64,000 nucleotides of DNA from Singulisphaera sp. GP187 (GTDB lineage: Bacteria; Planctomycetota; Phycisphaerae; Phycisphaerales; SM1A02). Both the position numbers and the translations under genes were made by a program. The stretch covers positions 1 through 64,000 of the forward strand of contig CAMBXO010000012.1 in NCBI GenBank assembly GCA_945871915.1, in the 5' to 3' direction. The notes below the pieces were generated by a model, which was given only the letters and a program-made list of their open reading frames with translations, made no database searches and was not told the origin of the DNA. Below, in pieces: positions 682 through 42,309 of this stretch. How positions within the stretch are numbered: position 1 is the first letter of the stretch; every line of letters begins with the position of its first letter.

Positions 682-1138
682 CTAATACCTAATACTGATC
701 CTAATACCCCATCCCGCGAGCATGACTAACAGGGTGATTGGTGTAAATGAGTTGATGAAATTGATCCACTCACGTACACCGGAAAGGCACCCAATGCCAC
801 TAGCCCACAAGACCTTGACAAGGGCTTGACAAGAGATTGACAAGAGATTGACAAGAGATTGACAAGGGGTTTGACAAGGGCGTTGACAAGGGTTGCCTCA
901 AGGACAGCCGATCAACTAGCGAAAGCGAGTGGGGTGGAACGGTCCAAACTTAAACGCAAACCACAAGAACAACACCACCCCCACAAACGCGGCCAACAAA
1001 TTCCACGGCGGCTTTTTCACCTTTTTTTGATGACACGTGAGAATGCATCAAGATCCTCATCTTTATCTTCATCTTCATCTTGTGTCGGCATGGTAAAATG
1101 AGGCTACATCAACCGCTACGAGTCCAAGGTGAAATGTT
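682..1138. other. Non-coding stretch with short repeats
   Basis: No credible gene. It contains three CCTAATAC-like copies near 680-710, the TTGACAAG array listed separately, and a CTTCAT-type microsatellite near 1053-1085. The 11-mer GTACACCGGAA occurs near 774 and again near 1147 at the 3' end of the next gene. The composition and repeats suggest decayed or element-border DNA. Confidence 0.4.
815..893 (+). repeat. Seven-copy TTGACAAG tandem array
   Basis: TTGACAAG occurs at 815, 826, 837, 848, 859, 871 and 883, so the spacing is 11, 11, 11, 11, 12 and 12 bp, close to one helical turn. The three central units are identical (TTGACAAGAGA); the outer ones vary after the core. Each unit carries the -35 consensus TTGACA, but there are no -10 hexamers at regular distance. 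It could be a protein-binding iteron-like array or a minisatellite; function is unknown. Confidence 0.85.
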
Positions 1139-2107
1139 CTACTCAAGTACACCGGAAGCATCCGAGATTGAATGCACCAATGCGTCGGCACGCAGCCTGC
1201 CGGAGTAGCGATACGAGCGCTCATTGTCCTGCGTGACCGTGGGCCGCGGCATGTCCGTTGATGACAGCGTGACTTGGTCACCGAACACGCCTCGCACGCG
1301 CACCCAACAGCCCCTTGGAAGTTCCACATACGACGCGCCGTTATCTGTTTCTAGGTCGAACAAGTCGCGATCCTTCGTTCGCGACTTTGGCACATCAAGC
1401 ACCAGACTTCGCCGGATCTCGATTCGGCTGCTGCTGATGTTCATGCCGTCCTCGCAAGGATGTCGCACTTCCAAACGGTCCAATCGAATCCGCGAGTTGG
1501 TCAGATCGATTCCATCATCTGCCGAATGCAAGCTGCGCACGTTGGAAATCTTCCACTCATCTGGCCCAACACCGATCAGCGAAAGGCCATCGATGTCATC
1601 TCCAATGTTGAGATTGCGGCCGGTGACTTTGCTTTGACTGGAATACGAATCGTGCCGACCCAAATGCAACAGCGTGATCGATTGCGCGCGGAACTTGGAC
1701 GGCACACGCCCTGCGACCTTTCGCAGCGAGATGCCATCCTTCGAGCCGCTTGCGTAATTACCTAAAAACCAAACGCCGCCATTGTCCGCATGCTTGACAG
1801 GCGTGTGCGAACCGTTGCACGCCTTGATCGTGAACCGCCGAGCCTTGAGTTGCGATCCAGGATCAAAGATGATCGCCGCGCGCCGAATCCGGCTCTTCCT
1901 TACAACTCCGTTGGCGATCAGCAGCGTTGCACCATCCGCGATGGTGAGTGCCACACCAGTCCGTACCCGCACCTCGCCGCCAATCACCCATGTGCATCCC
2001 TTGCCCAACGTTCGGCTGCGGCAGATATCAGATGAGATCACTTCGATTTTCTTGGGACGTGCTGCTCGCTTTCTTGCGGTGCTGCGGTTTTTTTTCTTCG
2101 CTGGCAT
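1139..2107 (-). CDS. Beta-helix-like protein with basic N-terminus
   Basis: 322 residues. Residues 2-22 are very basic (KKKNRSTARKRAARPKK), with no hydrophobic signal core. The rest is built from short strand-turn units (for example LTIADGATLLIANG near residue 55, NIGDDIDGLSLIG near 180, SADDGIDLTNSRIRLDRLEV near 200), the pattern of right-handed parallel beta-helix proteins with pectate-lyase-like Asp-rich turns. Known beta-helix enzymes are usually secreted, so the basic, signal-free start is odd and might mean nucleic-acid or cell-wall polymer contact. No clear Shine-Dalgarno sequence precedes the ATG. It is the last gene of a four-gene minus-strand set with the CadD-like and DUF4239 genes. 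I do not recognise a specific family and assign no reaction. Confidence 0.6.
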   Translation of the reverse strand: MPAKKKNRSTARKRAARPKKIEVISSDICRSRTLGKGCTWVIGGEVRVRTGVALTIADGATLLIANGVVRKSRIRRAAIIFDPGSQLKARRFTIKACNGSHTPVKHADNGGVWFLGNYASGSKDGISLRKVAGRVPSKFRAQSITLLHLGRHDSYSSQSKVTGRNLNIGDDIDGLSLIGVGPDEWKISNVRSLHSADDGIDLTNSRIRLDRLEVRHPCEDGMNISSSRIEIRRSLVLDVPKSRTKDRDLFDLETDNGASYVELPRGCWVRVRGVFGDQVTLSSTDMPRPTVTQDNERSYRYSGRLRADALVHSISDASGVLE

Positions 2108-2152
2108 GAGTGTTCTCTGTATGGGTTCGAGAATCCATCCGTGGAATACAAA

Positions 2153-2827
2153 TCAATCCGTGGACGCGGCTGCCGATGCCGGAGTGACCGAGACAGCGGA
2201 TTTCGTTTCATCACTGGTCCATACCAGCCCGACCGCGCCGGAGAGAATCCAGAATCCAAGGGCAATCAGCACATAGGGCAGCAGCGACTTGGCCAACCGC
2301 TGCATGGTGGACGCGACAAGTCGGTGGCTGACCAACAGGTAACCGGCCACGCACCACACAATCGTCATGACGACGAACACCATGAGATACGCGGGGATCG
2401 CCGAGAGATTTTTCGCAAACACCGGCACATACACACCAAGATTGTCGCCGCCATTCGCCGCCGTCACCCCCGCCACCGAGAACACCTGCGCCGACATGGC
2501 CGCTGGAGTTGACCCAATGCCATCGCCGTCATCGCTCGAATCCCCCGCCGCTCCTCGCCGCCAGTTGCTCCAAAGCTGATGAACGCCAAGCCCCAGTGGA
2601 ACAAGCCCCAAGAGCGCGATCCACTCACTCGGAACAATCAGCGCACATGCAGCCGCAAGGATGCTCACCACAACAAGTCCGCCGATGCCGACAAACTTGC
2701 CCACCACCACCGCTCGCCGATTCAATCGTGGATCGGCGAAGAACGCCATCGTTAAAAAGATGTCGTCAATATTGGTCGACGCGTACAAGCCAACGCCAAT
2801 CGCAAGATTTTCGATCATGCTTGTCAC
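2153..2827 (-). CDS. CadD-family cadmium/cation transporter
   Basis: About 224 residues, mostly hydrophobic with five or six predicted membrane segments. The N-terminal motif STNIDDIFLTMAFF, the central GLVPLGLGVHQLW and the AANGGDNLGVYVPVF motif (about residue 120) are diagnostic of the CadD family (Pfam Cad). Known members are inner-membrane proteins linked to cadmium resistance in Gram-positive bacteria; substrate specificity is not visible in the sequence. The window starts with a GTG (MTSMIE); the ATG three codons later (2818) is equally possible, and neither has a strong ribosome site. It follows the DUF4239 gene by 9 bp and is probably co-transcribed. No metal-sensing regulator such as cadC lies nearby, so a role in metal resistance is not certain. 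Confidence 0.8.
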   Translation of the reverse strand: MTSMIENLAIGVGLYASTNIDDIFLTMAFFADPRLNRRAVVVGKFVGIGGLVVVSILAAACALIVPSEWIALLGLVPLGLGVHQLWSNWRRGAAGDSSDDGDGIGSTPAAMSAQVFSVAGVTAANGGDNLGVYVPVFAKNLSAIPAYLMVFVVMTIVWCVAGYLLVSHRLVASTMQRLAKSLLPYVLIALGFWILSGAVGLVWTSDETKSAVSVTPASAAASTD

Positions 2828-2836
2828 GTCGCAGGA

Positions 2837-3619
2837 TTACTTGGTGAGCAACTGCTCTGCCAACCTCAGCGACTCGGTTGGCACACGGAGAAACCCGCTC
2901 ATCGGATTCTCAAGTTCCAAAATAAGGAAGACCGCACTGGCAACAATCAAGCTGCCGACTGCAATGGTGGTCAGCACGGTGGCATTGCGAGTACTGAAGA
3001 TGCCGAAGCAGAAGAATTCCAGCACCAGCCAGCCGAACACCACCACAAGAAAGACTTGCGGAATGGACGCTGGCTTCACGGTAAAGAACCAGCGTTGCTG
3101 TGCCAAGTTGCCATCACCGTAACTCACACGGCCCCCCAATATTTCTAGCGCACGCGAACGCAAATCTCGCTGCAACTCGTTGGTTGGGGCCAAACTGTGA
3201 ATCGTGTTGTAGAGACGCTCCATCATGCTGATGCCTTTGACCGCGGTTTGGTCAGCAATGAAGTACGCGTCGCCAGCTTCGATTGTTTCGATTCGATAAT
3301 GGAGCGAGTCCCGCAATTGCTGGCGGGCACTGGCCGACTCAGCACCATAATTGTCCAAGATTTGATCCAGCGTCAGAATGTCGACTGCCATCGAGGTGAT
3401 GACGGCGTTGCCTGCGTCGTAGGTTTCTTTCGCAGAAGCGGTCACCATGCCAAGCAAAATGCTTGTCAGCGTGGCCATCATGCCAATTGTGAGTCGCACG
3501 GATGACTTGGTCGCATCGTTTTGATGGCTTTCAGGCAGTCTGCGCTGAACCCAAAATCCAACGAGCGCGGCCACACATGTGCCGACGAACACAATCAAAC
3601 TGACCAAGACATCCGACAT
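2837..3619 (-). CDS. DUF4239 (bestrophin-like) membrane protein
   Basis: 260 residues from the ATG at 3619, chosen because AGGAGG lies 6-7 bases upstream; a longer frame from 3652 lacks such a site. Layout: membrane helix at about 6-26, a second at about 45-65 (LTIGMMATLTSILLGMVTAS), a long soluble helical middle (about 70-180), then two C-terminal membrane helices ending in NPMSGFLRVP. This layout and the KETYD and LDQILDNYG motifs match DUF4239, a family distantly compared with bestrophin channels; its biochemical role is not established. It sits between a small membrane-protein gene and the CadD-like gene on the same strand, which suggests a shared envelope or ion-related role (inference). 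Confidence 0.75.
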   Translation of the reverse strand: MSDVLVSLIVFVGTCVAALVGFWVQRRLPESHQNDATKSSVRLTIGMMATLTSILLGMVTASAKETYDAGNAVITSMAVDILTLDQILDNYGAESASARQQLRDSLHYRIETIEAGDAYFIADQTAVKGISMMERLYNTIHSLAPTNELQRDLRSRALEILGGRVSYGDGNLAQQRWFFTVKPASIPQVFLVVVFGWLVLEFFCFGIFSTRNATVLTTIAVGSLIVASAVFLILELENPMSGFLRVPTESLRLAEQLLTK

Positions 3620-3728
3620 TCGTGCCTCCTGAAAACGATCGAACTGTACCACCGATCATTGCAGAACTTGGCGCAGAACTTGGCGGCGCGGCCTGCAGTT
3701 TGTTCAGCCAATGGCTGGCCCATGCGGT

Positions 3729-4421
3729 CTACGCCCCGATGGCTCTGTCGGCAAACTTCTGATTCGCGATCTGTTGCTGAATGACCGTGGCAAGTTTGTG
3801 AATCACCGTTTGATAGTCGTCGTAACTGACCTGCCCCTGCTTGCCTCGCAACACCTTGATCTCGTTTGCGGCGGCGAACAGCGATTCGGTCATCTGAATG
3901 GTGCTTGCCTGATAGTTGATTCGCAATCGCGGCCACAGTCGCTGCAGCGTGTCGCTTTGCGCCCAATTGAGAAAATTGCCAAGCCAGATATTCACGCCGG
4001 TCTTGTCGCGCGTGTAGATCGTTTTGTAATCCTCAAAAATTTGGAACACCGAAATGGCGAACGCAACTTGGTGCATGTCCTTGGACGATGCGATCGAAAG
4101 ATCGGGATACATCTCAGCCGGCAGCGAACCCAACTTGTCGTAATCATGCGCCAGCCGAAAATTGGGGGTAATCCACAGGTCATTGATGATCTTGATGGTG
4201 GACAATTCCAAAGCTTCCTCGCTCGCCATCTCTTGGCTGCGAGCCTGGTGATACAAGGTCAACGCCACAAACAATCCAGCTCCGCCCGTGAGCAACATCA
4301 TCAATTTGTAAATAGTGGATTGCTCAATGGGTTGATCCAGATCCGGGTCCTGACAGAGCAAATACACAAATAAAGCGCTGATGGCGATCATGGCCAGAAG
4401 CAAATACTTTGAGAAAGTCAT
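3729..4421 (-). CDS. Membrane protein of unknown function, two N-terminal helices
   Basis: 230 residues, start supported by AGGAGGA six bases upstream of the ATG. Two hydrophobic segments (about 5-22 and 40-58) are followed by a soluble, helix-rich domain of about 170 residues with conserved-looking NDLWITPNFR, FQIFEDYKTIY and NFLNWAQSDTLQRLW. The arrangement resembles DUF4760/DUF6082-type proteins, but I cannot assign a family with confidence. It is first in a same-strand set with the DUF4239, CadD-like and beta-helix-like genes; the 109-base gap to the DUF4239 gene leaves room for a separate promoter. Confidence 0.65.
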   Translation of the reverse strand: MTFSKYLLLAMIAISALFVYLLCQDPDLDQPIEQSTIYKLMMLLTGGAGLFVALTLYHQARSQEMASEEALELSTIKIINDLWITPNFRLAHDYDKLGSLPAEMYPDLSIASSKDMHQVAFAISVFQIFEDYKTIYTRDKTGVNIWLGNFLNWAQSDTLQRLWPRLRINYQASTIQMTESLFAAANEIKVLRGKQGQVSYDDYQTVIHKLATVIQQQIANQKFADRAIGA

Positions 4422-4553
4422 GTGCGTCCTCCTGCTTGAGTGAGCGATGGATCCAAGTTGGACATTGACCTCAGTGACGCGCCCAGTCTATGCAAGGCGG
4501 CGGGCCATCTTGCCCGCGTTGGCGATCTGTTGGAATCCGCGGTGACGACTTCA

Positions 4554-5492
4554 TCAAGATCGTGGTGATGGTGGCGTTCCCCATGGACCGCCAGGCAACC
4601 AATGCGATTTGGATGGCTCGCCGGTCAAGGCACACGCCAACGGCAAGGCGACGAACACCCGTACGTGGTCAATGACAGCCTTGAGTTCATCCGGCGCATC
4701 GTTGAGTTGGAGTCGCTTTCGAAATGCTCTCCACTGTTGCTGCTTCTGACGATCATCACCAAACGCGTCGGTCAATCCAAACGGCATCTCGGCCGGAATC
4801 GGCGTCTCGCGTCGGTCGAATGTCGCCCGAATCGCTTTGGTCAGCGTCACGCCGTCGAACCTGAATTGGCGAGCGATGATCCAAAGGTCAAAGAAGTCCT
4901 TCATTCGACTGTTGGCAATGCCAAGGACCGTGAGTGCTTGGAGTTTCTCCGCGACCACGGTTTCGGGTGGATACATCTTGAGCTGTGGCGCGTCATGGTC
5001 GAGCAGAGTCGGGAACAGTCGTTTCGCTGCATCTGGCACGACGACATCTCCAAATCCGACATCCAATTGAATTGGAATGCGCGCCGTGCCCAGAGCTGCC
5101 TCAAGCCGCACTCGAATGCCGCCATACTTCTGACCCTCGCGAATTTCGGTAGCCGTGACAGACTCTGCATTGAACTCGATGCCATCATTGGCAACTTCAA
5201 TGGAGATAATTCGCCGCATCAATTCGGCGGTCGCCAGTGGAGAAGGATCGCCAACGCCGAGGAAGTCCACATCAAGTGTTGGGCGGTGAAGATCTGCGAC
5301 CCACACACGAAACAACATCGCGCCCTTCAGGACCAATTGGTCGCCATGTGGTGATTGTGATAGCCGAAACAGGAATCGTTCAATCCCATACTGCAACAGG
5401 ATCGCGTTGTAATCCTCATGCCGCGACTTCGCAAGATTGAGCAGACGCTGCCGCACAGATGCTGCGGTGTTCGTAACGGGCTTCTTGCTCAC
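4554..5492 (-). CDS. abiEii: AbiEii-type nucleotidyltransferase toxin (system 1)
   Basis: 312 residues from a GTG at 5492 that overlaps the antitoxin stop (GTGA), so the pair is translationally coupled; a longer frame from 5588 would run deep into the antitoxin gene and is rejected. The nucleotidyltransferase core is visible: KGAMLFRVW (about 56-64) followed by PTLDVDF, with DVD at 74-76 as the metal-binding pair. Downstream YPPETVVAEKLQAL and RMKDFFDLWII are the usual AbiEii helices, and the C-terminal HWLPGGPW is also typical. Known AbiEii toxins are cytoplasmic NTP-using enzymes that stop growth and, in lactococci, abort phage infection; the target of this one is unknown. Length is normal for the family and no key residue appears lost. 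Confidence 0.88.
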   Translation of the reverse strand: MSKKPVTNTAASVRQRLLNLAKSRHEDYNAILLQYGIERFLFRLSQSPHGDQLVLKGAMLFRVWVADLHRPTLDVDFLGVGDPSPLATAELMRRIISIEVANDGIEFNAESVTATEIREGQKYGGIRVRLEAALGTARIPIQLDVGFGDVVVPDAAKRLFPTLLDHDAPQLKMYPPETVVAEKLQALTVLGIANSRMKDFFDLWIIARQFRFDGVTLTKAIRATFDRRETPIPAEMPFGLTDAFGDDRQKQQQWRAFRKRLQLNDAPDELKAVIDHVRVFVALPLACALTGEPSKSHWLPGGPWGTPPSPRS

Positions 5493-6094
5493 ACGAGCGA
5501 TTCCATGTAGGGCCTCATCACATTGGCCACACGATCCATCTTGGCGAAGCGATGAAGGTCGTTCATGGACGCTTTGCGGCGGCGCCAACTGACACGAAGT
5601 GCTTCAATTGCAACATCGATGCCAATCTTGTTGCGGTGGCGAAAGCAGTCGGCGACCGTTTTGGCCGGGTTCGTAACCCGGACCTTCACGCCGTGAATCG
5701 TGTGATGCTCGATGCCGAACCGAATCGCTGGCCCCGACGCACGGATTAGGCGGATCGGCGGATAGTCGATTACCGGTTTGCGAGATGTACGATCGATCAT
5801 CACCCAAATCTCGAATGGGTTCTGCGTAGTCACCTCGTGAAAACGAAGCGCGGAGAGCAGGCAGATCACCGCTCTGGGCAGCCGTTTGGCAATGTCGGCA
5901 AGGTTGGCAGCCGTAGATGGCTCAAGGTCTGCGCGTGCATAGATGCCGCGACCGCGACGGATGATGTCGCCACGATCAACGAGCCTTTTCAGAACCATGC
6001 GGGGTATGCCACAACGATCGAGATCGCGAGGCCGGATGATCTCTTGTCGTCGGGCGAGGTCCAGAAGTCGGGTTGTCTGGGTCTTGGTCGGCAT
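5489..6094 (-). CDS. abiEi: AbiEi-type antitoxin / autorepressor (system 1)
   Basis: 201 residues. The N-terminal 60 residues form the winged-helix DNA-binding domain of AbiEi (IIRPRDLDRCGIPRMVLKRL, then GDIIRRGRGIYA); the rest is the antitoxin domain with RAVICLLSALRFHEVT, NPFEIWVMIDR and NPAKTVADCFRHRNKIG, the latter highly characteristic. In studied AbiE systems this protein neutralises AbiEii without direct protein contact (type IV) and represses its own promoter by binding inverted repeats. A large palindrome begins two bases upstream of this ATG (6096-6143), which fits autoregulation. It overlaps abiEii by four bases. The start is the first ATG after the palindrome, with no Shine-Dalgarno, so the message may be leaderless or nearly so. 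Confidence 0.9.
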   Translation of the reverse strand: MPTKTQTTRLLDLARRQEIIRPRDLDRCGIPRMVLKRLVDRGDIIRRGRGIYARADLEPSTAANLADIAKRLPRAVICLLSALRFHEVTTQNPFEIWVMIDRTSRKPVIDYPPIRLIRASGPAIRFGIEHHTIHGVKVRVTNPAKTVADCFRHRNKIGIDVAIEALRVSWRRRKASMNDLHRFAKMDRVANVMRPYMESLV

Positions 6095-6095
6095 G

Positions 6096-6143
6096 TGTTA
6101 CGGAATGTCAACTCTTATCGACAAGAGTTGACATTTCGTAACA
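6096..6143. promoter_or_regulatory. 48-bp palindrome, probable AbiEi operator
   Basis: Left arm 6096-6116 (TGTTACG...GTCAACTCTT) and right arm 6123-6143 (AAGAGTTGAC...CGTAACA) are inverted copies of 21 bases with one mismatch; the six-base centre itself contains TCGA. It lies one base upstream of the abiEi start codon on the minus strand. Characterised AbiEi antitoxins bind inverted repeats of about 23 bp in their promoters, so autoregulatory binding is the natural reading (inference). A weak minus-strand promoter TTGTTA-17 bp-TCGATA can be drawn across it, so bound protein would cover it. Confidence 0.75.
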
Positions 6144-6423
6144 ACCTATTCGGCCACGTCCACCGATGCAAGCCACAGCCGGCCGTCGCCCGTCAGCAAC
6201 ATCATCGATTGGTAGATCGTGGCAGAGAAGCAACTGTTGTACCCCGATATCATCCTTGCATGCACGAATCGAGTGGACCACATCCGGTGGATGATCGATG
6301 CGATCCGGCGCTCATCGCTGTGCTGCGTTCACAGTCGGAAGGCACGCGGCTTGGCGCACAATCGGACAGTCGAACCTGATGGAGCCCACAGAACTGCTGC
6401 GCCTTGTCGGGGAGCGGCTTCAC
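6144..6423. other. Intergenic, no gene seen
   Basis: Between the AbiE operator and the 3' end of the P-loop kinase gene. Open frames on the plus strand here are shadows or short. A frame beginning ATGGAGCCCACAG near 6379 (MEPTELLRLVGERL) could be the start of a lost gene, but it runs into antisense of the kinase gene. No terminator or tRNA seen. Confidence 0.35.
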
Positions 6424-7041
6424 TCACCCACCGTTCGCTTTCACCGCTTTCACCGCATCCACCGCAGCCTGCAATTGTTCCAATCGCTGCGGCCGCGGGC
6501 CCCACAGTTCCACAAGGTGCGGCCGATTCTTTACCGGCATCGCTTGGTATCGCCCTTCGCGATACATCTGCTTAAAGATCGCATCCACATCGTCCCTATA
6601 CGCCACGTCCACTGGCCGAATTCCGTCCGACTCCATTTCCACGGGCCACTCTGCAGACTTTGGCACAAACGCAAGAATGTCCACATGATCCAGCGATTCT
6701 CTCACTGCAGGAATCATGCTCTTTACAAATGCGTCGTTGATATCCGTGGTGCCCTGATTGGCGGTGTATTGCGAATACGCCAGATAGTCCATCGGCGCGC
6801 GATCAAAAATCACATCATCACTCGACGTGGCATAGCGATGAATCCGGCTGATGTTGTAATACAACTGAATTCCGTTGTGCAGTTTGGTTGATGCATGACG
6901 AAAAAGAATTTCGTACGGCCCGTGCAGGCCCAGGGCTCGATAGGGTTCTTCTTCGCGAATGAAATGGGGGTGACTGGCCATCCAGTCATTGACAACAGTG
7001 GACTTTCCTAATGAATGGCTGCCAGATATTGCGATGCGCAT
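6424..7041 (-). CDS. NadR-like P-loop ATPase/kinase (AAA_28 type)
   Basis: 205 residues. The Walker A motif GSHSLGKST is at residues 7-15, directly after an N-terminal strand (MRIAI). FDRAPMDYLAYSQY (about 80-93) is the DR-type LID/Walker-B-like segment seen in NadR, deoxynucleoside-kinase-like and AAA_28 proteins, and VDILAFVPKS supplies another core strand. Such proteins phosphorylate nucleosides or small molecules in the cytoplasm; the substrate here cannot be read. It is transcribed towards the AbiE system 1 genes and away from system 2, with no Shine-Dalgarno before the ATG. Its place between two toxin-antitoxin modules suggests accessory cargo. It is not clearly part of either module. 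Confidence 0.75.
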   Translation of the reverse strand: MRIAISGSHSLGKSTVVNDWMASHPHFIREEEPYRALGLHGPYEILFRHASTKLHNGIQLYYNISRIHRYATSSDDVIFDRAPMDYLAYSQYTANQGTTDINDAFVKSMIPAVRESLDHVDILAFVPKSAEWPVEMESDGIRPVDVAYRDDVDAIFKQMYREGRYQAMPVKNRPHLVELWGPRPQRLEQLQAAVDAVKAVKANGG

Positions 7042-7153
7042 TGCGAGTGCGAGTGTATGAATGAATAGAACGGGATTCGTTTTCCTCGCGAACGGTGGAG
7101 CCGAGGTTCAGGTTTCACCCTCGCAGGTTGTGAAGCCGTGGGTCAGGATTTGC

Positions 7154-7307
7154 GCCAGTGACGGAGCCGGAATTCAGGTTTCCCGCCTGCGGGAAACACG
7201 GAATTCCGGCTCCAATGAGAAACACGGAATTCCAGTTCTGCGCACGTGGAAAGCACGGAACAAGGGTTTCCCGCAGAGCGGGGAACCCGAATTCCGTGCT
7301 TTATCGC
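7154..7307. repeat. 154-bp palindromic repeat, left copy
   Basis: Contains two nested hairpins. Hairpin 1 (7163-7213): 13-bp outer stem GGAGCCGGAATTC/GAATTCCGGCTCC around a 9-bp inner stem GTTTCCCGC/GCGGGAAAC. Hairpin 2 (7250-7302): 11-bp outer stem AAAGCACGGAA/TTCCGTGCTTT around an 11-bp inner stem at 7264-7274/7278-7288 with an AGA loop and one G-U pair. A partial extra copy of the CCGAATTCCGTGCTTTATCG end follows at 7311-7330. It matches the right copy at 9582-9735 except at four positions. REP/BIME-like elements have this look, but I do not recognise the family. Confidence 0.9.
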
Positions 7308-7381
7308 AACCCGAATTCCGTGCTTTATCGCTGCTTGGAACAAAACTTCCGTGCTTTCTATCTACCTCAACCGATCTCAAA

Positions 7382-7443
7382 AGTGAAAATGTTCATTTTC
7401 CACTAACCGATTTGTTTCCGCTTCCGGAAAACAACGATATACT
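7382..7443 (+). promoter_or_regulatory. Probable promoter and operator of AbiE system 2
   Basis: An imperfect inverted repeat AGTGAAAATG / CATTTTCCACT spans 7382-7402. A good -10 hexamer TATACT lies at 7438-7443, only eight bases before the ATG at 7452, so a transcript would be leaderless or nearly so. No convincing -35 is present (TTTCCG at 17 bp). The inverted repeat would suit binding by the antitoxin, by analogy with other AbiE systems; this is inference. Confidence 0.45.
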
Positions 7444-7451
7444 GGACACAC

Positions 7452-8558
7452 ATGCCCCAGCGCCCCGAGACCAATTTCCAGAAGAACATGCTGCGCAAGC
7501 TCAAGGCTGCTGGTTCGCCATGGCCATCGCAGGTCGAACTGGCCATCGAACCGTGGATCCGGCGCGGAGCCTCGTCGCATTCCACCAATGGTGCCAACAA
7601 CGGTCAGCCGGACTTTCGCGTGCGCCTTGGCTGGAAGCGTGGTCGCTTTGAATTTGTCGCCGAGGCTAGGAATCGCAGCACCCCCAGCGTTCTGGCAACC
7701 GCCGTGCAACAGGCCAAGCAGTACGCGGAGCAAGTCGGCCTGCCGCCGATGGTCATCGTGCCCTTCCTTGATGATGCCCGAATGGATCGACTTGCCGAAG
7801 CGGAAGTCTCCGGTCTTGATCTCTCTGGCAATGGAATCGTCATGGTGCCAGGGCGTCTCCTTCTGCGTCGCTCCGGCAACAGCAATCGGTTTCCGGAATC
7901 ACAACCGATGCGGTTCGCGTATCGCGGCGCCACATCGATTGTCCCTCGCGTCTTTCTCTGTAGGCCGCGATTTGAATCGGTCAGTGACATCAAGAACGAA
8001 ATCGAAGCCCGAGGCGGCGACGTGGCACTCTCCACGGTGTCCAAGGCGCTCGCTCGCATGATGGATGATGTGCTGATCGATCGAGGCGGAAGACAGATCA
8101 CCCTGCTGCAGCCTGATGCCTTGCTCGACAAACTTGCTGAGAACTTTCGCCCATCGAGGCGCCTTCAATCAATCTCACTCAAGTGTTCCCTCTCGCTTGC
8201 GGAGATTTTCACAAAGGTCGCCCGCAATCGTGCAAGGCCACGCATGGTGCTTTCAGGGGCATCATCTCAAAACCGCTACGCCGCCGGTCTTCGCTCCGAT
8301 GAACCGCTGGTGTACTGCGATGACCTCGCCGCGGTCTGTACCTCGCTTGGCAAAGCGTGCAAGGAGAGTGCACGATTCGCTGATCTCACCGTCGTTGCCA
8401 CTGATGATCGCACGCCGTTCTTCGATGCTCGCCCGGACGCATCGGGCAGTCTCCTCGCTTCGCCCGTGCAGGCGTATCTTGAAACGGCCGTTGGTGACAA
8501 ACGCGACCGCGAGATTGCGCAAGCCATCCGCAAGCGAATTCTGCGCGACTTGAAGTAG
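7452..8558 (+). CDS. AbiEi-like antitoxin with N-terminal nuclease-like domain (system 2)
   Basis: 368 residues. Residues 1-135 form an alpha/beta domain resembling restriction-endonuclease folds (QPDFRVRLGWKRGRFEFVAEARN, then an FVAEARN-type acidic strand), as seen in the longer AbiEi family antitoxins. PGRLLLRRSG near 138 leads to a winged helix at about 180-235 (SDIKNEIEARGGDVALSTVSKALARM, then VLIDRGGRQITLLQPDALLDKLA). The C-terminal part has VLSGASSQNRYAAG and SPVQAYLETAVGDKRDREIAQAIR, the family signature for substrate-like sensing regions. By family it should repress transcription and counter the nucleotidyltransferase encoded 13 bp downstream. It is unrelated in length and domain layout to the system 1 antitoxin. 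Start chosen as the ATG eight bases after the TATACT box. Confidence 0.75.
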   Translation: MPQRPETNFQKNMLRKLKAAGSPWPSQVELAIEPWIRRGASSHSTNGANNGQPDFRVRLGWKRGRFEFVAEARNRSTPSVLATAVQQAKQYAEQVGLPPMVIVPFLDDARMDRLAEAEVSGLDLSGNGIVMVPGRLLLRRSGNSNRFPESQPMRFAYRGATSIVPRVFLCRPRFESVSDIKNEIEARGGDVALSTVSKALARMMDDVLIDRGGRQITLLQPDALLDKLAENFRPSRRLQSISLKCSLSLAEIFTKVARNRARPRMVLSGASSQNRYAAGLRSDEPLVYCDDLAAVCTSLGKACKESARFADLTVVATDDRTPFFDARPDASGSLLASPVQAYLETAVGDKRDREIAQAIRKRILRDLK

Positions 8559-8571
8559 CGTTCACACTGCA

Positions 8572-9426
8572 ATGCTGACCGACCCGCTTACAACAACCGT
8601 GCTGGACTTGGACTCCGCTCTTGGCGGGCATGCGGACATTCTGATTGCGGGAGGGTTTGGTCTCTATCTCAAGCAATGGCATCTTGAAGCGTCGCGTGCT
8701 CGCACGCTTCTGCCGTTTGATCGCTGGCCTCGGGCACGCACCACGCAGGACATCGACCTATTTCTCCGCGCCGAGATCGTGGCGAATGCGGAAATGATGT
8801 CGAAGTACCGCTGCGCCTTGGATCGCCTTGGGTTCACGGTGGAACCGAACGCCAAGTGGCTCAAGTTCAAGCGATTGGTCAACAGTCACGATGTGATCGT
8901 TGATGTGATGGTTGGTCCGATGGGTGACATGGCCGATGCAACCGAACGGACCGCGTTTCGTGTGAAGCCCAAGGGCTCTTCGGGCCTGCATGCCAGGGCA
9001 ACCGATGATGCTCTAGGCGTCGAGCATGAGCCGGTGCGTATACCAGTCACCGGAACTCGATCGAATGGTGTCTCGCACTCCTGCAACATTCTTGTAGCGC
9101 AAACATTCCCGTTTGCACTCATGAAACTTGGCGCCATGCAGGATCGGATCCACGACACCAACAAGGACGAAGGGCGGCACCACGCTCTTGATCTCTATCG
9201 CATTGTGGCCATGCAGACCGAATCTGAAGATGCGATCGCTGGCAAGCTGGCTGCTCTTCACGCTGGCGACCGCAGAGTGGCAAACGCGATGAAGGTCATT
9301 GATCAATATCTGAAGCCGACTGATGGACTTGGACGGATCCGGCTACGCGAACATCCGCTTTGCCCACCGGACGCGGATCTTGATTGGCTATCGCGCGAAC
9401 TCAGTCGCCTGTTGCAGCCTCGCTGA
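8572..9426 (+). CDS. AbiEii-like nucleotidyltransferase toxin (system 2)
   Basis: 284 residues. The nucleotidyltransferase signature is complete: LIAGGFGLYL (GG at 27-28) followed by RTTQDIDLFL with the DID metal-binding pair at 60-62, and a third acidic strand candidate HDVIVDVMVG near 105. FPFALMKLGAMQDR near 182 corresponds to the K-containing helix of AbiEii proteins, followed by HALDLYRIVAMQ. It probably transfers nucleotides to an RNA or protein target in the cytoplasm and causes growth arrest when free of the antitoxin; the target is unknown. It follows the antitoxin by 13 bases in the same direction, so they form one operon. Sequence similarity to the system 1 toxin is limited to the catalytic motifs as far as I can see. 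Confidence 0.78.
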   Translation: MLTDPLTTTVLDLDSALGGHADILIAGGFGLYLKQWHLEASRARTLLPFDRWPRARTTQDIDLFLRAEIVANAEMMSKYRCALDRLGFTVEPNAKWLKFKRLVNSHDVIVDVMVGPMGDMADATERTAFRVKPKGSSGLHARATDDALGVEHEPVRIPVTGTRSNGVSHSCNILVAQTFPFALMKLGAMQDRIHDTNKDEGRHHALDLYRIVAMQTESEDAIAGKLAALHAGDRRVANAMKVIDQYLKPTDGLGRIRLREHPLCPPDADLDWLSRELSRLLQPR

Positions 9427-9494
9427 GTCGCACCTTGCAATCCATCCCGCACACGCAGCCGCCGATGTTTTTGTTGAGAGCGGTTTCTCTAGGC

Positions 9495-9584
9495 GGTGGA
9501 GCCGAGGTTCTGGTGTTTCGCCGGTGACGGAGCCGGGGTGCTGGTGTTTCGCCAGTGACGGAGCCGGGGTGCTGGTGTTTCGCC
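9495..9584 (+). repeat. Three 28-31-bp tandem units beside right repeat
   Basis: Units at 9495-9522 (divergent, 28 bp), 9523-9553 and 9554-9584 (31 bp each, nearly identical) contain GGAGCCGGGGTGCTGG and GTGTTTCGCC. A fourth unit starts at 9585 and merges into the right 154-bp repeat. A degenerate single unit precedes the left repeat near 7095-7120. The tandem expansion exists only on the right side. Confidence 0.85.
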
Positions 9585-9735
9585 AGTGACGGAGCCGGAA
9601 TTCAGGTTTCCCGCCTGCGGGAAACACGGAATTCCGGCTCCAATGAGAAACACGGAATTCCAGTTCCGCGCAAGTAAAAAGCACGGAACAAGGGTTTCCC
9701 GCAGAGCGGGGAACCCGAATTCCGTGCTTTATCGC
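9582..9735. repeat. 154-bp palindromic repeat, right copy
   Basis: Same orientation and length as the left copy at 7154-7307, with both nested hairpins preserved. The four differences fall together in the short spacer between the two hairpins (about 9666-9678), not in the stems, which suggests that the hairpin structures are under constraint or are the mobile unit. Confidence 0.9.
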
Positions 9736-9767
9736 TGGAAGAAAACAAAAATTCCTTGCTTGAGGCC

Positions 9768-9904
9768 CTAAGCCGGACGAAGACTTTGATCACCACCCCG
9801 ATACATGTCAGTACGCCAAGGGCGACTTTGACGCAAGCGGCACGATTGACAACGGCGATCTCGCCATCATGCTCTTGTTCTTTGGCGATGTCACGTGGCC
9901 GTAA
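9768..9904 (+). pseudogene. Dockerin-like C-terminal remnant of a secreted protein
   Basis: Starting after an in-frame TGA, the frame reads PKPDEDFDHHPDTCQY then AKGDFDASGTIDNGDLAIML and LFFGDVTWP to a TAA at 9902-9904. GDFDASGTIDNGDLAIML is a calcium-binding loop-helix of the dockerin type I-like tails common on planctomycete secreted proteins. Only about 45 codons remain and no start is available, so this is the broken 3' end of a larger gene. It lies 32 bases after the right palindromic repeat, so the repeat or cassette may have removed the rest. Confidence 0.65.
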
Positions 9905-9937
9905 AGATGTGTGCCACATCATGCCGATTGACTCCGC

Positions 9938-10306
9938 ATGCCATCCCCGCGATTTCCATCGATTGAGAAGTACCTTGCGTCGCTGGACCCCATCAAGGCC
10001 GCCACCATTCGCTCGGTTCTGGATTTGATCCTGTCCAAATTTCCAGAACTCCAATCCAAGATCTCGTGGAATGTGCCCACCATTCACCGCAATGGAAAAT
10101 ATGTGGCCGGCATTGCCGCTTATTCCAAACACCTCACCTTTGCACCGTGGAGCCCCACCATCATTGCGGATTTTCGGGTGCGACTGAAAAAGTATGTTGT
10201 CTTTCAGAACTGCTTTCAAATACCGGTCGATTGGAAACCTGATCGCAAACTGCTCACCGACCTCGTCAAGGCCAGACTGGCTGAATTAGATAGCCAGAGT
10301 GCGTAG
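9938..10306 (+). CDS. DUF1801 (YdhG-like) protein
   Basis: 122 residues. FPSIEKYLASLDPIKAATIRS and SKISWNVPTIHRNGKYVAGI, then AAYSKHLTFAPWS, follow the DUF1801 / YdhG-YjbR-like pattern: an N-terminal helical segment, then a small beta-sheet with a conserved W..P.....G. The family is small and cytoplasmic, sometimes compared with frataxin-like iron chaperones, but function is not settled. The ATG lies 33 bases after the dockerin-like remnant, which places this gene at the left boundary of the chromosomal-looking part of the window. It ends seven bases before the lipoprotein start used below, so the two may be co-transcribed. Confidence 0.7.
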   Translation: MPSPRFPSIEKYLASLDPIKAATIRSVLDLILSKFPELQSKISWNVPTIHRNGKYVAGIAAYSKHLTFAPWSPTIIADFRVRLKKYVVFQNCFQIPVDWKPDRKLLTDLVKARLAELDSQSA

Positions 10307-10316
10307 TCTTACCGCC

Positions 10317-10898
10317 ATGAAAGCTCTATCCGCCTCTCTGCTTGCGGCCCTGCTTCTGCTTCCGGCCCCGCTTCTGGTGTCATGCAATTCATCCGGCACC
10401 GCTGGCAATCAAGCCACCAACATCACGGGGCGAACCGGGGTGCTTCCGGGCCGCCGCTTGATTGCTCGCCTACGAAATGATTCAGCCAAGCCCCCCACCA
10501 CCACTCCGCAGGGAGCGCCGGTGGATCTGGTCATGCTGGATACCAGCACCACCACCACCGCACACGTGGGCGATGCACTGCATGTGGAATTGCACGCCAA
10601 CACCGGCACGGGATTTCAATGGATGTTTGTGGGTTGCGATGACCGCCCCACGGATGCTTCACTTTCTACCGCCAACGGGCCAGTGGTGCTCACACCGCTC
10701 TTTGACTTGAAAAAGGGCGAGGGCACGGTGCGACCCACCGATGCTGGCAAGCCTGGCGCACCCGCCCATTGGGTGTTTGAGTTCACCGCCGCACATGCGG
10801 GCACATCCACCATGCAATTTGTGCTGGTGCGTCCCTGGGAAAAGGGAACCAAGCCCGCCGATTCACGCACGCTTCAAGTTACGGTTTCGGGCAACTGA
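10317..10898 (+). CDS. Lipoprotein with chagasin-type (I42) inhibitor domain
   Basis: 193 residues from ATG 10317; a frame from 10299 overlaps the previous gene and is less likely. The signal is MKALSASLLAALLLLPAP followed by lipobox LVSC, so a lipid-anchored protein is predicted. The C-terminal 110 residues show the protease-inhibitor I42 pattern: GDALHVELHANTGTGFQW (the NPTTGY-like first loop as NTGTGF), a GxxG middle loop in PTDAGKPGAPAHWVFEFTA, and FVLVRPWEKG matching the R-P-W-E loop of chagasin. Known members inhibit papain-type cysteine proteases outside the cytoplasm. Residues 25-75 are a Thr/Pro-rich linker. No cysteine protease is seen in the window. Confidence 0.7.
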   Translation: MKALSASLLAALLLLPAPLLVSCNSSGTAGNQATNITGRTGVLPGRRLIARLRNDSAKPPTTTPQGAPVDLVMLDTSTTTTAHVGDALHVELHANTGTGFQWMFVGCDDRPTDASLSTANGPVVLTPLFDLKKGEGTVRPTDAGKPGAPAHWVFEFTAAHAGTSTMQFVLVRPWEKGTKPADSRTLQVTVSGN

Positions 10899-11005
10899 TT
10901 TCACGCGAGGGCGGCGAGCCGAGTGATGGCATGGTGTCAGCGTGCCATGATGCGAGGGTGCCATGATGGCGCGGTGTCATGGTGCAAGCGGCTAGCATTC
11001 TTCGC

Positions 11006-11599
11006 ATGCACGATCAAACTTCTATCCACATCCTTCATTTGCGCCGCAGTGTTCGGTGCCTTCAGGTCGCAGTCACCCTTCTTGGTGTGTTGCTAGTGCT
11101 GAGTTGGTTTCCGGGTAATGCATCACCGTCATTTGATGTGATCACCTGTCAGGGCTTGCGTGTGCTAGATGCTCACGGAACGATGCGTTTGGCCACCGCC
11201 ATCACACCCGGCGAGAGCACCTTTAGCCTGAACTGGTTTGACACCACCGGGCAAGTTCGAATCAGCGGAGCCACCACCGCCGATGGCAGCGCCTCGCTGT
11301 CACTCTTAGATACGCAGGGATTGAGTCGCATTTCAACCGAGACCGCACTCAATGGCAGCGCGCTGACGGTGTGGCGAAACGATGCCAACATTCCCAGATT
11401 GAGTGCGGGCACGCTGCAAGATGGGACGGCCTTACTGAAATGGCAGGACCCCGAGGGCATTCTTCGCATGGATGCGTCGGTAGACCCCGAGGGCTGGGCC
11501 GGGCTTCAGATTTTTGATCCAGAGGGCCACCCACGCATTACGGCTACCTGTGCGCCGGGCGATCGAGTAACGCTGCCAACGGTTGACCTTGGTAAGTAA
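11006..11599 (+). CDS. Membrane-anchored protein with six ~23-residue repeats
   Basis: 197 residues from ATG 11006 (MHDQTS), with an upstream alternative at 10979. One hydrophobic segment (VAVTLLGVLLVLSWFPG, about 22-38) is a signal anchor. The rest is about six units of 23-25 residues with consensus L..D..G..RI.......DGSA.L, for example WFDTTGQVRISGATTADGSA and LLDTQGLSRISTE. The regular G and DG turns suggest a beta-solenoid or beta-hairpin stack outside the cell. I know similar D-G-R repeat proteins from planctomycetes but no function. It is separated from the lipoprotein upstream by about 100 bases containing TGCCATGATG duplicates, and is convergent with the next gene. Confidence 0.6.
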   Translation: MHDQTSIHILHLRRSVRCLQVAVTLLGVLLVLSWFPGNASPSFDVITCQGLRVLDAHGTMRLATAITPGESTFSLNWFDTTGQVRISGATTADGSASLSLLDTQGLSRISTETALNGSALTVWRNDANIPRLSAGTLQDGTALLKWQDPEGILRMDASVDPEGWAGLQIFDPEGHPRITATCAPGDRVTLPTVDLGK

Positions 11600-11617
11600 A
11601 GAAGTGCGTCACTTCTT
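11599..11617. terminator. Possible bidirectional terminator hairpin
   Basis: AAGAAGTG-CGT-CACTTCTT forms an 8-bp stem with a three-base loop between convergent gene ends. It is followed by TCTTTG on the plus strand and preceded by TTACTTACC on the complementary side, so the T-tracts are weak. It includes the last codons of the minus-strand gene. Confidence 0.4.
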
Positions 11618-11992
11618 CTTTGAGCGATCGTCGTCGTCGTGATCGTTGTCATCGTCGTTGCGATCACCCTTGGGTCGGCCGTTCTTCTTACGGCTATCGA
11701 CTGAGCGATCCACTTCGGCAAATCGTTTACGCATCATCACGGCTCCCTGCATGGGGCCACCGTCATGGCCCATCATGGGGCCGCCATGCTGCGGCATGTC
11801 GTGCTTGTCGCCCGATTTGCCAATCATGACTCCAACAAAGAACACCGGCAGCACCACCACAATAGCGATCAGGCATTGGCGCGAGCAGCAGACTTTCTTT
11901 TCAAGGGATGCAAGGCGATCGCTGCAGCAGCAGGTGCCACACTTGTTTGAGGCTCCTGAGGTGCAACATGAAGCAGCGTTGGATTCGGTCAT
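11609..11992 (-). CDS. Small single-pass membrane protein, Cys-rich N-terminus
   Basis: 127 residues from the ATG at 11992, with AAGGAG seven bases upstream; the longer frame from 12055 is rejected. Residues 1-40 hold nine cysteines (CCTSGASNKCGTCCCSDR and VCCSRQC), residues 41-58 are one membrane helix (LIAIVVVLPVFFVGVMIG), then a His/Met-rich stretch (HDMPQHGGPMMGHDGGPM) and a strongly charged RKK/DDDD tail. Cys-rich plus His/Met-rich segments on opposite sides of one helix suggest metal binding, but no family is recognised. It is divergent from the methyltransferase gene, with 47 bases between them. Confidence 0.65.
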   Translation of the reverse strand: MTESNAASCCTSGASNKCGTCCCSDRLASLEKKVCCSRQCLIAIVVVLPVFFVGVMIGKSGDKHDMPQHGGPMMGHDGGPMQGAVMMRKRFAEVDRSVDSRKKNGRPKGDRNDDDNDHDDDDRSKKK

Positions 11993-12039
11993 GAGTGACT
12001 CCTTAGAAATGAGGCGAAGACGGCTCATGGTACGCCCGC

Positions 12040-12846
12040 ATGTGTCACGAAGCAATGCAAGACACGCCGTTCACCTACGCTTGTTCCGTGGACGCCAAAT
12101 CCAGTCAATCGCCCAATGCCTCACTCTTTACTTTGGAAAGCATGCAGTTCTTCGGTCGCGTTGCCAGCGACTATGAAGCCATGTTTGCCATTCGTCTTGC
12201 CGAGCTTTCGGGCAAGCATGTGCTGGACTGTCCGTCGGGGCCAAGTTCATTTGTAAGTGAAGCGAACGCCGTGGGTGTTCATGCGATCGGCGTCGACCCG
12301 CTGTATGACCAGCCTCTTGAAGTTCTTCTTCAGCGTGGCGCTGCCGATGTGGACTACACCATGGCACGCATGGGGGACAACTCCAGTGAATTTGGGGATG
12401 TCAATCTTCAGGCCTACGCGTCAAGCAAACTTCAGGCCATGATTCGCTTTGCACGCGGCTTTGAGCAAGGCAAAGCGAACGGTGTGTATCGCGCGGCGCA
12501 GTTGCCCAATCTTCCATTTGCGGATGGTGCATTTGATCTGGTGCTGTCGGGGCATTTGCTGTTGACGTACAGTTCACCGGAATCCGGCGGCATTCTGCCC
12601 AACTCAGACTTTTCGCTGGCGTGGCACGTGGAAGCCGTTATGGAATTGGTGCGAGTCTGTCGCGGCGAAGTGCGGCTGTACCCCACCACCACTCGATGGA
12701 AAACGCCTTGCCGTCATCCGTATGCTGAGGCCATTGCAGAGCATTGCACCAGCCGTGGCATGCGGGTTCGCTATGAACCAAGTTCTTTTGCTCGCGGCCA
12801 CCATGTCCATGACGCACTCAATGCCTGCATGGTGATCTCACGATGA
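12040..12846 (+). CDS. Class I SAM-dependent methyltransferase-like protein
   Basis: 268 residues (an ATG five codons in, at 12055, is also possible). KHVLDCPSGPSSFVSEA at about 58-74 is motif I of class I methyltransferases (D-x-P-x-G-P replacing DxGxGxG), IGVDPLYDQPLEVLLQRG holds the acidic motif II, and LPFADGAFDLVLSGHLLLTYS at about 158-178 is motif IV/V. The enzyme would use S-adenosylmethionine; the substrate is unknown. The C-terminal RYEPSSFARGHHVHDA resembles other planctomycete proteins annotated only as SAM methyltransferases. The stop overlaps the start of the SGNH hydrolase by four bases. Confidence 0.7.
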   Translation: MCHEAMQDTPFTYACSVDAKSSQSPNASLFTLESMQFFGRVASDYEAMFAIRLAELSGKHVLDCPSGPSSFVSEANAVGVHAIGVDPLYDQPLEVLLQRGAADVDYTMARMGDNSSEFGDVNLQAYASSKLQAMIRFARGFEQGKANGVYRAAQLPNLPFADGAFDLVLSGHLLLTYSSPESGGILPNSDFSLAWHVEAVMELVRVCRGEVRLYPTTTRWKTPCRHPYAEAIAEHCTSRGMRVRYEPSSFARGHHVHDALNACMVISR

Positions 12847-13697
12847 AGCATGTGCACCAATCTTGGTTGGCATGTGTTTTGTGTGGCGTGGTGTTGGCTC
12901 TGTGTCTTGGTGTTGCGCCACCTGATTCTGCTCCTGCACCTGCACCTGACTCTGTTGAAGCATCACTGCCGGAACTTCCCGCGGCCATGACTCCGGCAGC
13001 TCGCGAACAGGGTTGGGGCTCGCAGCGACAGGATGAAATGCTTGCTCGCGTTCGGCAGGGCAAGCCGCCTGTATCAATTGTTTTTATTGGCGACAGCATT
13101 ACGCAAGGCTGGGAAGACGCTGGTGCAGAAATTTGGAAGCGTGACTTTGCGCCACTGGGCGCGTTGCAACTGGGTGCGAGTGGCGATCGAACCGAACATG
13201 TTTTGTGGCGGCTGCGTGAAGCGCCGCTGACACCGCTTGAGCCGCGAGTCATTGTTCTGATGATCGGAACCAATAACACCGCCACCGGTCGAGACAGCGG
13301 CGAAGTGATTGTGCGAGCCATTCGTTTGATCGTGGAAACATTGAAACAGCAGTGCCCAGCCGCACACATTCTGGTGTTGGACATCCCTCCGCGAGGGTTG
13401 CAGATGAATCCTGTTCGAGGTGTGGTGGTGCAAATCAATCAGGCTCTTTCACAGTGCAACTGGCCGGCGAATGTGAAATTTTTGCAGGTGGGCGATCGGT
13501 TTGTTCGAGGCGACGGAAGTATTGATCCGGCCAACATGCCCGACGCTTTGCACTTTTCCACCAAGGGCTATGGCATGTGGAGTGATTCGATTCGCCCGGC
13601 GGTGGCGGCCATTCTTGCGCCACCGATCGTTGCACCTCCATTGCCTGCGCCCGCGTTGCCCGCACCTCCATTGCCTGCACCGACCTCCAGTCCGTAA
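12843..13697 (+). CDS. Secreted SGNH/GDSL hydrolase
   Basis: 284 residues. Signal peptide 1-25 (LACVLCGVVLALCLGVA). SGNH blocks are complete: FIGDSITQG with Ser85, LQLGASGD with Gly111, IGTNN with Asn144, and DALHF with Asp234/His237. This is the platelet-activating-factor acetylhydrolase-like arrangement; such enzymes remove acetyl or acyl groups from sugars or lipids outside the cytoplasm. The C-terminus (about 255-284) is a Pro/Ala-rich tail with a duplicated APPLPAP unit, probably a surface linker. The gene overlaps the methyltransferase (ATGA), and a serine-hydrolase-like gene follows after nine bases, so the three form one operon. Confidence 0.82.
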   Translation: MKHVHQSWLACVLCGVVLALCLGVAPPDSAPAPAPDSVEASLPELPAAMTPAAREQGWGSQRQDEMLARVRQGKPPVSIVFIGDSITQGWEDAGAEIWKRDFAPLGALQLGASGDRTEHVLWRLREAPLTPLEPRVIVLMIGTNNTATGRDSGEVIVRAIRLIVETLKQQCPAAHILVLDIPPRGLQMNPVRGVVVQINQALSQCNWPANVKFLQVGDRFVRGDGSIDPANMPDALHFSTKGYGMWSDSIRPAVAAILAPPIVAPPLPAPALPAPPLPAPTSSP

Positions 13698-13706
13698 GAT
13701 GCCAGC

Positions 13707-15083
13707 ATGTCTCGCCCCATTGGATGGATCGCCATTGTTTTTGCCATTGCGTTAGTCGCCCTCTTGGGGTGGCCGGGTTCGGCTCCAGCCCCAGCCTCGG
13801 CTGCTCGATCGATTCCATTAGGGATGAAACCCTCGCTACCCACAAAACCATCGCCCACTTCGCCAGCTTCGCCCACGACCACCGCTTCGCCCGCAACGCC
13901 CACTTCGCCCACGGCCACCACTTCGCCTACGACTCCCACTTCGCCGCAAATCGCGCCGGCCATTGCAAGCAATGTGAAGGCCGATGAAGAAATTGCTCTC
14001 CTGCTGCAGCGAGCCATCCAGACTTCTGGCGCTCCTGCCATGGCCGCTGCCGTGGTGAAAGATGGCCGAGTGATCGGCAGCGCGGCTGTTGGCGTTCGCA
14101 AGAACAAAGATGCCACGCCGGTCACACTGAATGATCCATTTCCAATTGCCAATTGCACCAAGGCTTTTACCGCCACGCTGATCGGACGTTTGGTGGATCA
14201 AGGCAAACTCAAATGGGAAACCACCATCGCGGAAACGCTTGGACGCGAAATCCCTGGCGTGCATCCCGACTTTGCGGGTGTGACGGTGGATCAACTGCTG
14301 CACCATCGAGGTGGACTTGTCGCTCGCGGGCCGTCTGAAGTATGGACGGAGGCACAGCGAGCCAAAGGCACGCCACAAGAACAGCGAGCGGTCTATGTGG
14401 AAGCGATCATCACCAAGACTCCAGCGAAGTCGCCAGGACAATATCTGTACAGCAACGCCGGGTACGCCACGCTCGGCATGATGGCTGAAGTGGTGATGGG
14501 AATTCCTTTTGAACAACTGATGAAGGAGCAAGTGTTTGAACCGCTTGGCCTCACCACCGCTGGGTTTGGTCTTGCGAGTGATTCCAAACTTGTGACGGCG
14601 CCGTGGCCACACACCAATGGCTCCGCCATCTACACGGAGAATCCGGCATGCATCGCGCCGGGTTCTCGCATGTTCATCAGCATTGGAGATTGGGCTACGT
14701 TTGCCAATTTTCAACTGGGGCATCAACCCACACCGCCGCTGCTCAAACCAGAAACTTTGGCCCACCTGCACGCGTTGCAAGGCGAAACGGCGGATCATGA
14801 AATGGGTTACGCCTGCGGCTGGTTTCGCCCCCTGCGAGATTGGACCAGTGGCCGATCACTTCACCACATTGGCACCAATTCGCTGTGCTTCTCGGAAATC
14901 TGGCTGGTGCCACCACGTGATTTTGGTGTGATGGTGGTGACCAACGAAGGCAATCAGGAAACAACCGAGGTGGTCGAGCACACCGTTTCGGCACTCGTTG
15001 AACGATTTTTAGGTGTGAAGACCGGTCCACTGGAATCTGCGAAGGGGTCCTCACAGAACAAAGCACCGGTGATCCCCAAGTAG
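13707..15083 (+). CDS. Class C beta-lactamase/PBP-like protein lacking catalytic serine
   Basis: 458 residues: signal anchor at 5-22, a Ser/Pro/Thr repeat linker (46-80), then a beta-lactamase-fold serine-hydrolase domain (90-440). The second motif YSN is intact at 248-250 and the HxG third motif is HIG at 387-389. The first motif should be SxxK, but the sequence is PIANCTKAFTA, with Asn149 in place of Ser and Lys152 kept. Codon 149 is AAT (14151-14153), one base from AGT, so an inactivating change or sequencing error is possible; a pseudo-enzyme is the other reading. Active relatives are esterases, D,D-peptidases or beta-lactamases of the envelope. It is the third gene of an operon with a methyltransferase and SGNH hydrolase. 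Confidence 0.8.
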   Translation: MSRPIGWIAIVFAIALVALLGWPGSAPAPASAARSIPLGMKPSLPTKPSPTSPASPTTTASPATPTSPTATTSPTTPTSPQIAPAIASNVKADEEIALLLQRAIQTSGAPAMAAAVVKDGRVIGSAAVGVRKNKDATPVTLNDPFPIANCTKAFTATLIGRLVDQGKLKWETTIAETLGREIPGVHPDFAGVTVDQLLHHRGGLVARGPSEVWTEAQRAKGTPQEQRAVYVEAIITKTPAKSPGQYLYSNAGYATLGMMAEVVMGIPFEQLMKEQVFEPLGLTTAGFGLASDSKLVTAPWPHTNGSAIYTENPACIAPGSRMFISIGDWATFANFQLGHQPTPPLLKPETLAHLHALQGETADHEMGYACGWFRPLRDWTSGRSLHHIGTNSLCFSEIWLVPPRDFGVMVVTNEGNQETTEVVEHTVSALVERFLGVKTGPLESAKGSSQNKAPVIPK

Positions 15084-15163
15084 GCCGGATCAGCGATGGC
15101 TGTTTCGGGTGGGATGCCTGGATCGGTGTGCTGGGAAATTTTCGATACGAAATTCTTCACCAC

Positions 15164-19624: not shown

Positions 19625-19680
19625 TCGTGTTGTGATCCGTGAGCGATTCCGTCACGCGATGAATGTGCTAGTTTCCCGCA

Positions 19681-42237: not shown

Positions 42238-42244
42238 AGTGGCT

Positions 42245-42300
42245 GCCATCATGACCCAAGGTGCTCCGTGCTTGCATGGAGCACCTTGGGTCGTGATGGC
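42245..42300. terminator. 23-bp-stem hairpin between convergent genes
   Basis: Arms 42245-42267 and 42278-42300 pair over 23 bases, with one G-U wobble in RNA and a ten-base loop. The cyclophilin gene ends eight bases before and the ligA stop lies ten bases after. No U-run follows on either strand, so it may act as a bidirectional terminator, an mRNA-protecting structure or a Rho-linked stop. Confidence 0.7.
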
Positions 42301-42309
42301 AACTTTCGA

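Follow-up and report, generated by a model that had tools for sequence, protein, structure and literature searches.

The window, as the whole 64,000-nucleotide stretch of DNA analyzed here is called, contains a two-gene operon that is bracketed by two direct copies (R1 and R2) of a palindromic repeat array, with almost identical cores and diverged edges. The reading we consider most likely, with chances about evenly balanced, is that these arrays represent a local, passive palindromic minisatellite which evolves in concert and through which recombination could remove the operon. What has been observed so far is an arrangement, made up of the following features:

about 7094 to 7358, plus strand: array R1, with two degenerate 31/32-bp units, hairpin 1, 26-bp units and hairpin 2
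7155 to 7307, plus strand: R1 core repeat, identical to the R2 core at 149 of 153 positions
7163 to 7213, no strand assigned: R1 hairpin 1, 51 nt, identical in all three copies found
7250 to 7302, no strand assigned: R1 hairpin 2, 53 nt, identical in both copies reaching that far
7412 to 7458, plus strand: conserved upstream region and operon start, 47 columns, 83% identical to a distant relative (L055)
7452 to 8558, plus strand: first operon gene, 368 aa, weak HTH_Crp_2 and AbiEi_2 matches, antitoxin-like
8572 to 9426, plus strand: second operon gene (284 aa), probably encoding a nucleotidyltransferase with distant similarity to AbiEii/DUF1814, toxin-like
about 9495 to 9762, plus strand: array R2, with 31-bp units, hairpin 1, 26-bp units, hairpin 2 and a degenerate unit
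9583 to 9735, plus strand: R2 core repeat, the counterpart of the R1 core with the same 149 of 153 identities
9591 to 9641, no strand assigned: R2 hairpin 1
9678 to 9730, no strand assigned: R2 hairpin 2

R1 and R2 are direct repeats in the same orientation. Their cores differ at positions 7239, 7245, 7248 and 7249 (R1 numbering), all within an 11-base span inside the spacer between the two hairpins, a clustering with P = 0.0008 under random placement. This agrees with the initial annotation, which had described near-identical direct repeats with four differences in the inter-hairpin spacer and had stated, again in accordance with our data, that they enclose just one two-gene operon (7452–9426). 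The homology extends beyond the 154 bp given there and takes in the diverged edges of both arrays. Each core, in R1 and R2 alike, consists of two imperfect hairpins in succession. Folded as DNA, R1 (7150–7299) and R2 (9583–9732) reached z-scores of -8.2 and -11.2, respectively, and in both cases none of 200 shuffles was as good; single hairpins gave -7.3 (R1, hairpin 1) and -8.7 (R2, hairpin 2). For R2, both hairpins are contained in the minimum-energy fold as well as in the centroid fold. For R1, the fragment of which ends three bases before the end of hairpin 2, both are found in the centroid fold only; the fold of minimum energy instead joins the outer arm of hairpin 2 to the 26-bp unit. 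An Rfam scan of window positions 1–20000 at gathering thresholds yielded no match. Since the longest exact match between R1 and R2 (86 bases) is shorter than the 149-base overlaps that connect five contig-end pairs of the assembly (130 common 20-mers each), it is unlikely that the bracket is the result of an assembly collapse.

The units of 31, 26 and 24 bp which make up the arrays are related to one another; some of them are arranged head to tail and others are inverted, with the inverted pairs making two foldback modules. Such a composition would be that of a non-coding compound minisatellite. The left-side 31-bp units resemble the first arm of hairpin 1 and number about three at R2, whereas R1 has two degenerate ones. 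Right-side 24-bp units, which end in AATTCCGTGCTTTATCGC, are present twice at R1 (the end unit belonging to hairpin 2 itself and another one, followed by one degenerate unit) and once at R2 (the end unit included in hairpin 2, followed by the degenerate unit). The number of units therefore varies between the copies, with additional 31-bp units at R2 and an additional 24-bp unit at R1, as slippage or unequal recombination yields. While the cores are identical at 149 of 153 positions, identity drops to 42 of 57 aligned bases at the left edges and to 22 of 35 at the right edges (Fisher's test, P ~1e-6 and 6e-8, respectively); an alternative register of the left edge gives 37 of 57 and P ~1e-9. 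The edge alignments beat each of 1000 shuffles, and judged by these alignments arrays R1 and R2 are homologous over about 265 bp. Identical cores together with drifted edges imply that the cores were either homogenised or constrained. A recent single duplication is unlikely, since it would have left core and edges equally alike.

Three array copies were found in the source genome (2.24 Mb, 20 contigs, 98.4% complete). Besides R1 and R2, a copy is located at the extreme end of contig C18 (14230–14321, 96% identity over 92 bases), where it is cut by the contig end, with its right half lying beyond; a set of three does not suffice to fix termini or rates. The search for more copies suggested by the initial annotation was successful within this genome, and also provided a locus with one repeat and without the operon. 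The dozens of unrelated copies which, according to that annotation, would have made the bracketing coincidental did not appear. The C18 copy adjoins a gene which, going by its sequence, we take to be methyltransferase-like and which shares 40% identity with one from a sister species. That counterpart lies near the tRNA-Gly of the sister species; with an identity of only 40%, we claim neither that C18 neighbors the start of the contig carrying the window (C12) nor that all three copies lie in one tRNA-Gly hotspot. Two of the three copies are 2.4 kb apart, and the chance that two of three randomly placed sites fall within 2.5 kb is about 0.007. Two tolerant pattern scans of the genome detected no array beyond the known three. 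The first gave six perfect sites within the arrays and 12 others at three mismatches (11 in the reversed control). In the second, 13 of 48 sites belonged to arrays, and the 35 scattered others (two to three mismatches) outnumbered the 19 of the reversed control, so that they may include single relics of the unit.

The repeat had no match at E 0.01 in any of 150 relatives, with up to five candidates scored per listed genome and the C18 copy among those listed. In a sample of the phylum, one other of 391 genomes contained a 32-bp match without a tandem array, in a region that by eye appears protein-coding; as a sign of absence this search is weak, because two candidates were scored per listed genome and the C18 copy was not among the matches listed. 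An exact 20-mer of the repeat occurs in two Rhizobium contigs (L050 and L051) of the genome_contigs collection (84,980 species). These were taken as chance matches, and no array surrounds the one that was examined (L050). Viral contigs contained no match to the 20-mer, and no report in the published literature searched was recognised as describing the R1/R2 repeat.

The window harbors a clear AbiE operon at 4554–6094, and the initial annotation had labeled the bracketed operon as a second one. Judged by sequence comparison, the bracketed operon is AbiE-like only distantly, and its role as a toxin-antitoxin system is putative. Points of resemblance are the gene order, with a regulator-like gene ahead of a nucleotidyltransferase-like one, and two motif-like stretches, RTTQDIDLFL and KLGAMQDR, which resemble motifs II and III of DUF1814 as given in PMC3985639. 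Points of difference are a GG-to-DhD spacing of 31 instead of 15 and the residue M in place of the aromatic residue of motif III, which is Y or F in some homologues. Matches in Pfam and PADLOC are weak or absent: the 284-aa protein matched no Pfam family and reached a best E of 0.0012 against PADLOC AbiEii. Among the seven members of its family, including the window protein, three matched Pfam AbiEii (best E 0.00038) and two NTP_transf_8 (best E 7.7e-05), the window protein being in neither group, and three matched PADLOC AbiEii (best E 9.9e-06). The 368-aa partner matched HTH_Crp_2 (E 0.00075) and, weakly, Pfam AbiEi_2 (E 0.092; two of seven members), both under the curated cut-offs, and PADLOC gave no AbiEi match. 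Single-sequence structure models of the two proteins had a mean pLDDT of 33 and 36, and sequence searches of the PDB gave a best E of 0.096.

Homologues of the nucleotidyltransferase occur in seven of 150 relatives, including a partial match of 48 residues in G125; the 15 congeneric genomes, some of which are only 73–83% complete, contain none. In the other six relatives, a partner gene precedes the nucleotidyltransferase gene; one of these partners (in L060) is shorter and lies near a contig end. No viral relatives of the second operon protein were found. This distribution makes horizontal acquisition likely, probably with a distant relative as the source; the operon may instead have been lost in all congeners. 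Comparison of the two 1.5-kb operon flanks in five relatives gave no common exact direct repeat of at least 14 bp; L060 was left out because its contig ends beside the operon. In L055, two other hairpins are present 5′ of the operon.

The region around the operon also differs from that of related genomes. In three sister species the gene order is DUF1801, AAA_28 and a gene of 230 aa, which correspond to 10022–10234, 6448–7041 and 3746–4468 in the window. Here (3729–10306) the order is reversed, with the strand of each gene kept, and reads 230-aa gene, AbiE, AAA_28, R1, operon, R2 and DUF1801. A tRNA-Gly(CCC) precedes DUF1801 in one sister species (G004); the remaining two species show at this place, by eye, no more than a sequence resembling the 3′ half of that tRNA, and ARAGORN predicted no tRNA there. 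In the window, positions 305–347 (43 bases) match the 3′ half of the sister-species tRNA-Gly(CCC) at 93%, and the best intact match in the source genome, tRNA-Gly(GCC) on contig C11, is of another isoacceptor type. These comparisons suggest a variable, island-prone region, and the change in gene order is not credited to the repeats. The tRNA-like stretch at 305–347 overlaps the end of a minus-strand frame (283–645) and is perhaps the remnant of an island end. This frame resembles an integrase C-terminus; PF00589 had no match on contig C12. Directly to the right of R2 follows an open fragment without a start (9767–9905), ending in ...GDFDASGTIDNGDLAIMLLFFGDVTWP, which resembles the tail of a dockerin-type gene.

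The initial annotation had interpreted the repeats as a possible unnamed MITE/REP-like family. This assignment is not supported, given the copy number of three, array ends that consist of degenerate units without fixed terminal inverted repeats as in MITEs, the absence of GTAG from R1 and R2 on either strand and the lack of a detected transposase; nor did any of the 150 relatives carry the repeat. The RAYT-type transposase that the initial annotation proposed to look for was not found either: a search for Y1/RAYT transposases (PF01797) in the source genome (98% complete) had no match at E 0.01, with a control search being positive in six of 14 genomes. CGTC is present in the arrays on the minus strand only, at the start of hairpin 1 and of the 31-bp units, and at the foot of hairpin 1 it overlaps the stem. 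According to PMC3733652, CGTC REPs are said to have no dedicated transposase, and both GTAG and CGTC kinds have been reported in Planctomycetes. The repeats resemble REPs and REPINs in being short intergenic palindromes with paired inverted units, and tandem, higher-order REP arrays are described for Pseudomonas fluorescens SBW25 (PMC3116915). In contrast to REPs, they are not present at high copy, and their hairpins of about 50 nt each exceed the usual 20–40 bp. With prokaryotic minisatellites they share the intergenic position, the head-to-tail units of 31 and 24 bp and the varying unit number, but differ from them in that units are also inverted, giving strong foldbacks, and in that the array exists at three places. 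Transposition of non-coding satellites is rare according to a survey (PMC6749651). A separate REPIN-like family of other sequence, AACTAGGGACGGGGGTNGTTA, was observed in the same genome on contigs C1–C5, C7–C10, C13 and C17. It comprises 28 sites with at most two mismatches (none in the reversed control), 16 of which form eight inverted pairs with starts 39–46 bp apart, and five contig ends lie inside it; one of 60 relatives contained it (two sites, at most one mismatch).

That the operon travels with the repeats, these being the ends of an unnamed family of the MITE/REP or integron type which is moved in trans, is rather improbable. Such a mobile cassette would agree with the direct bracket with little slack (gaps of about 53 bp between R1 and the conserved upstream region, 7358–7412, and of about 68 bp between the operon end and R2, 9426–9495), with the probable acquisition of the operon and with the C18 copy that stands without it. 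Mobile insertion cassettes consist of passenger genes between transposon ends without a transposase, and each end is an inverted repeat belonging to a known insertion sequence. The operon is similar in that it places passenger genes between repeated ends with no transposase gene, but its ends are direct and array-like. Integron attC sites have the core motifs RYYYAAC and GTTRRRY, neither of which occurs in R1 or R2 on either strand. Against a cassette speak also the missing REP-type transposase and GTAG tag, the five testable relatives without repeats at the operon and the absence of a flanking duplication or clean common termini by eye, both ends being available in two copies only. Diverged edges flanking a core that is almost unchanged also speak against a single recent cassette insertion. 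Of the cassette proposed in the initial annotation, the repeat-bracketed, probably acquired two-gene unit stands. A doubtful, though possible, route of entry is homologous recombination of a circular DNA, carrying operon and array, into a resident array, which would leave two chimeric arrays with cores converted later. It would account for arrays that are both complete rather than halves, for edges differing on both sides and for the sporadic operon among relatives, but no donor with operon plus array was found and the later homogenisation has to be assumed in addition.

The identity of the cores could instead stem from selection on the hairpins. That they are functional transcription or RNA-stability elements, with their sequence kept by selection, is in our view unlikely. 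In its favor, hairpin 1 is identical in three of three and hairpin 2 in two of two copies, with core changes between R1 and R2 confined to the spacer, and of the three terminator-like sites in 6400–10400 two fall on the minus strand of R2. However, shuffled sequences contain such sites at least as often (a mean of 4.5 versus three), the roles of the hairpins would have to differ because R1 precedes the operon and R2 follows it, and the five testable homologous operons do without such direct repeats, the two upstream hairpins of L055 being different ones. Even less probable, and in our eyes a long shot, is a use of the arrays as a lineage-specific docking platform on which defence-like operons of a variable region are swapped by repeat-guided recombination without a dedicated recombinase. 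According to the minisatellite reading, the arrays would be passive recombination substrates that require no dedicated enzyme; the two tyrosine recombinases found with PF00589 in the genome are encoded on contigs C4 and C15 and not on C12. The operon would have arrived with an array or beside one, and the cores would stay alike through recombination and gene conversion among the copies or through constraint on the hairpins. If R1 and R2 underwent RecA-type recombination, 2,428 bp would be lost, made up of the operon and one repeat. The locus thus offers a local example of a palindromic minisatellite with a uniform core and decaying edges, placed such that recombination would delete a probably acquired operon. 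If natural deletion or exchange takes place, this would constitute a transposase-free route to gain and lose defence-like genes.

Some further structures were observed in the window. Directly 5′ of the clear AbiE operon (4554–6094) lies a near-perfect palindrome with 22-bp arms (6096–6143), the position of which corresponds to that of the inverted repeats bound by AbiEi in its promoter (PMC3985639). A strong hairpin with 27-bp arms and a 4-base loop is located at 42244–42301, and about seven tandem copies of the 11-bp unit TTGACAAGGGA occupy positions 815–892.
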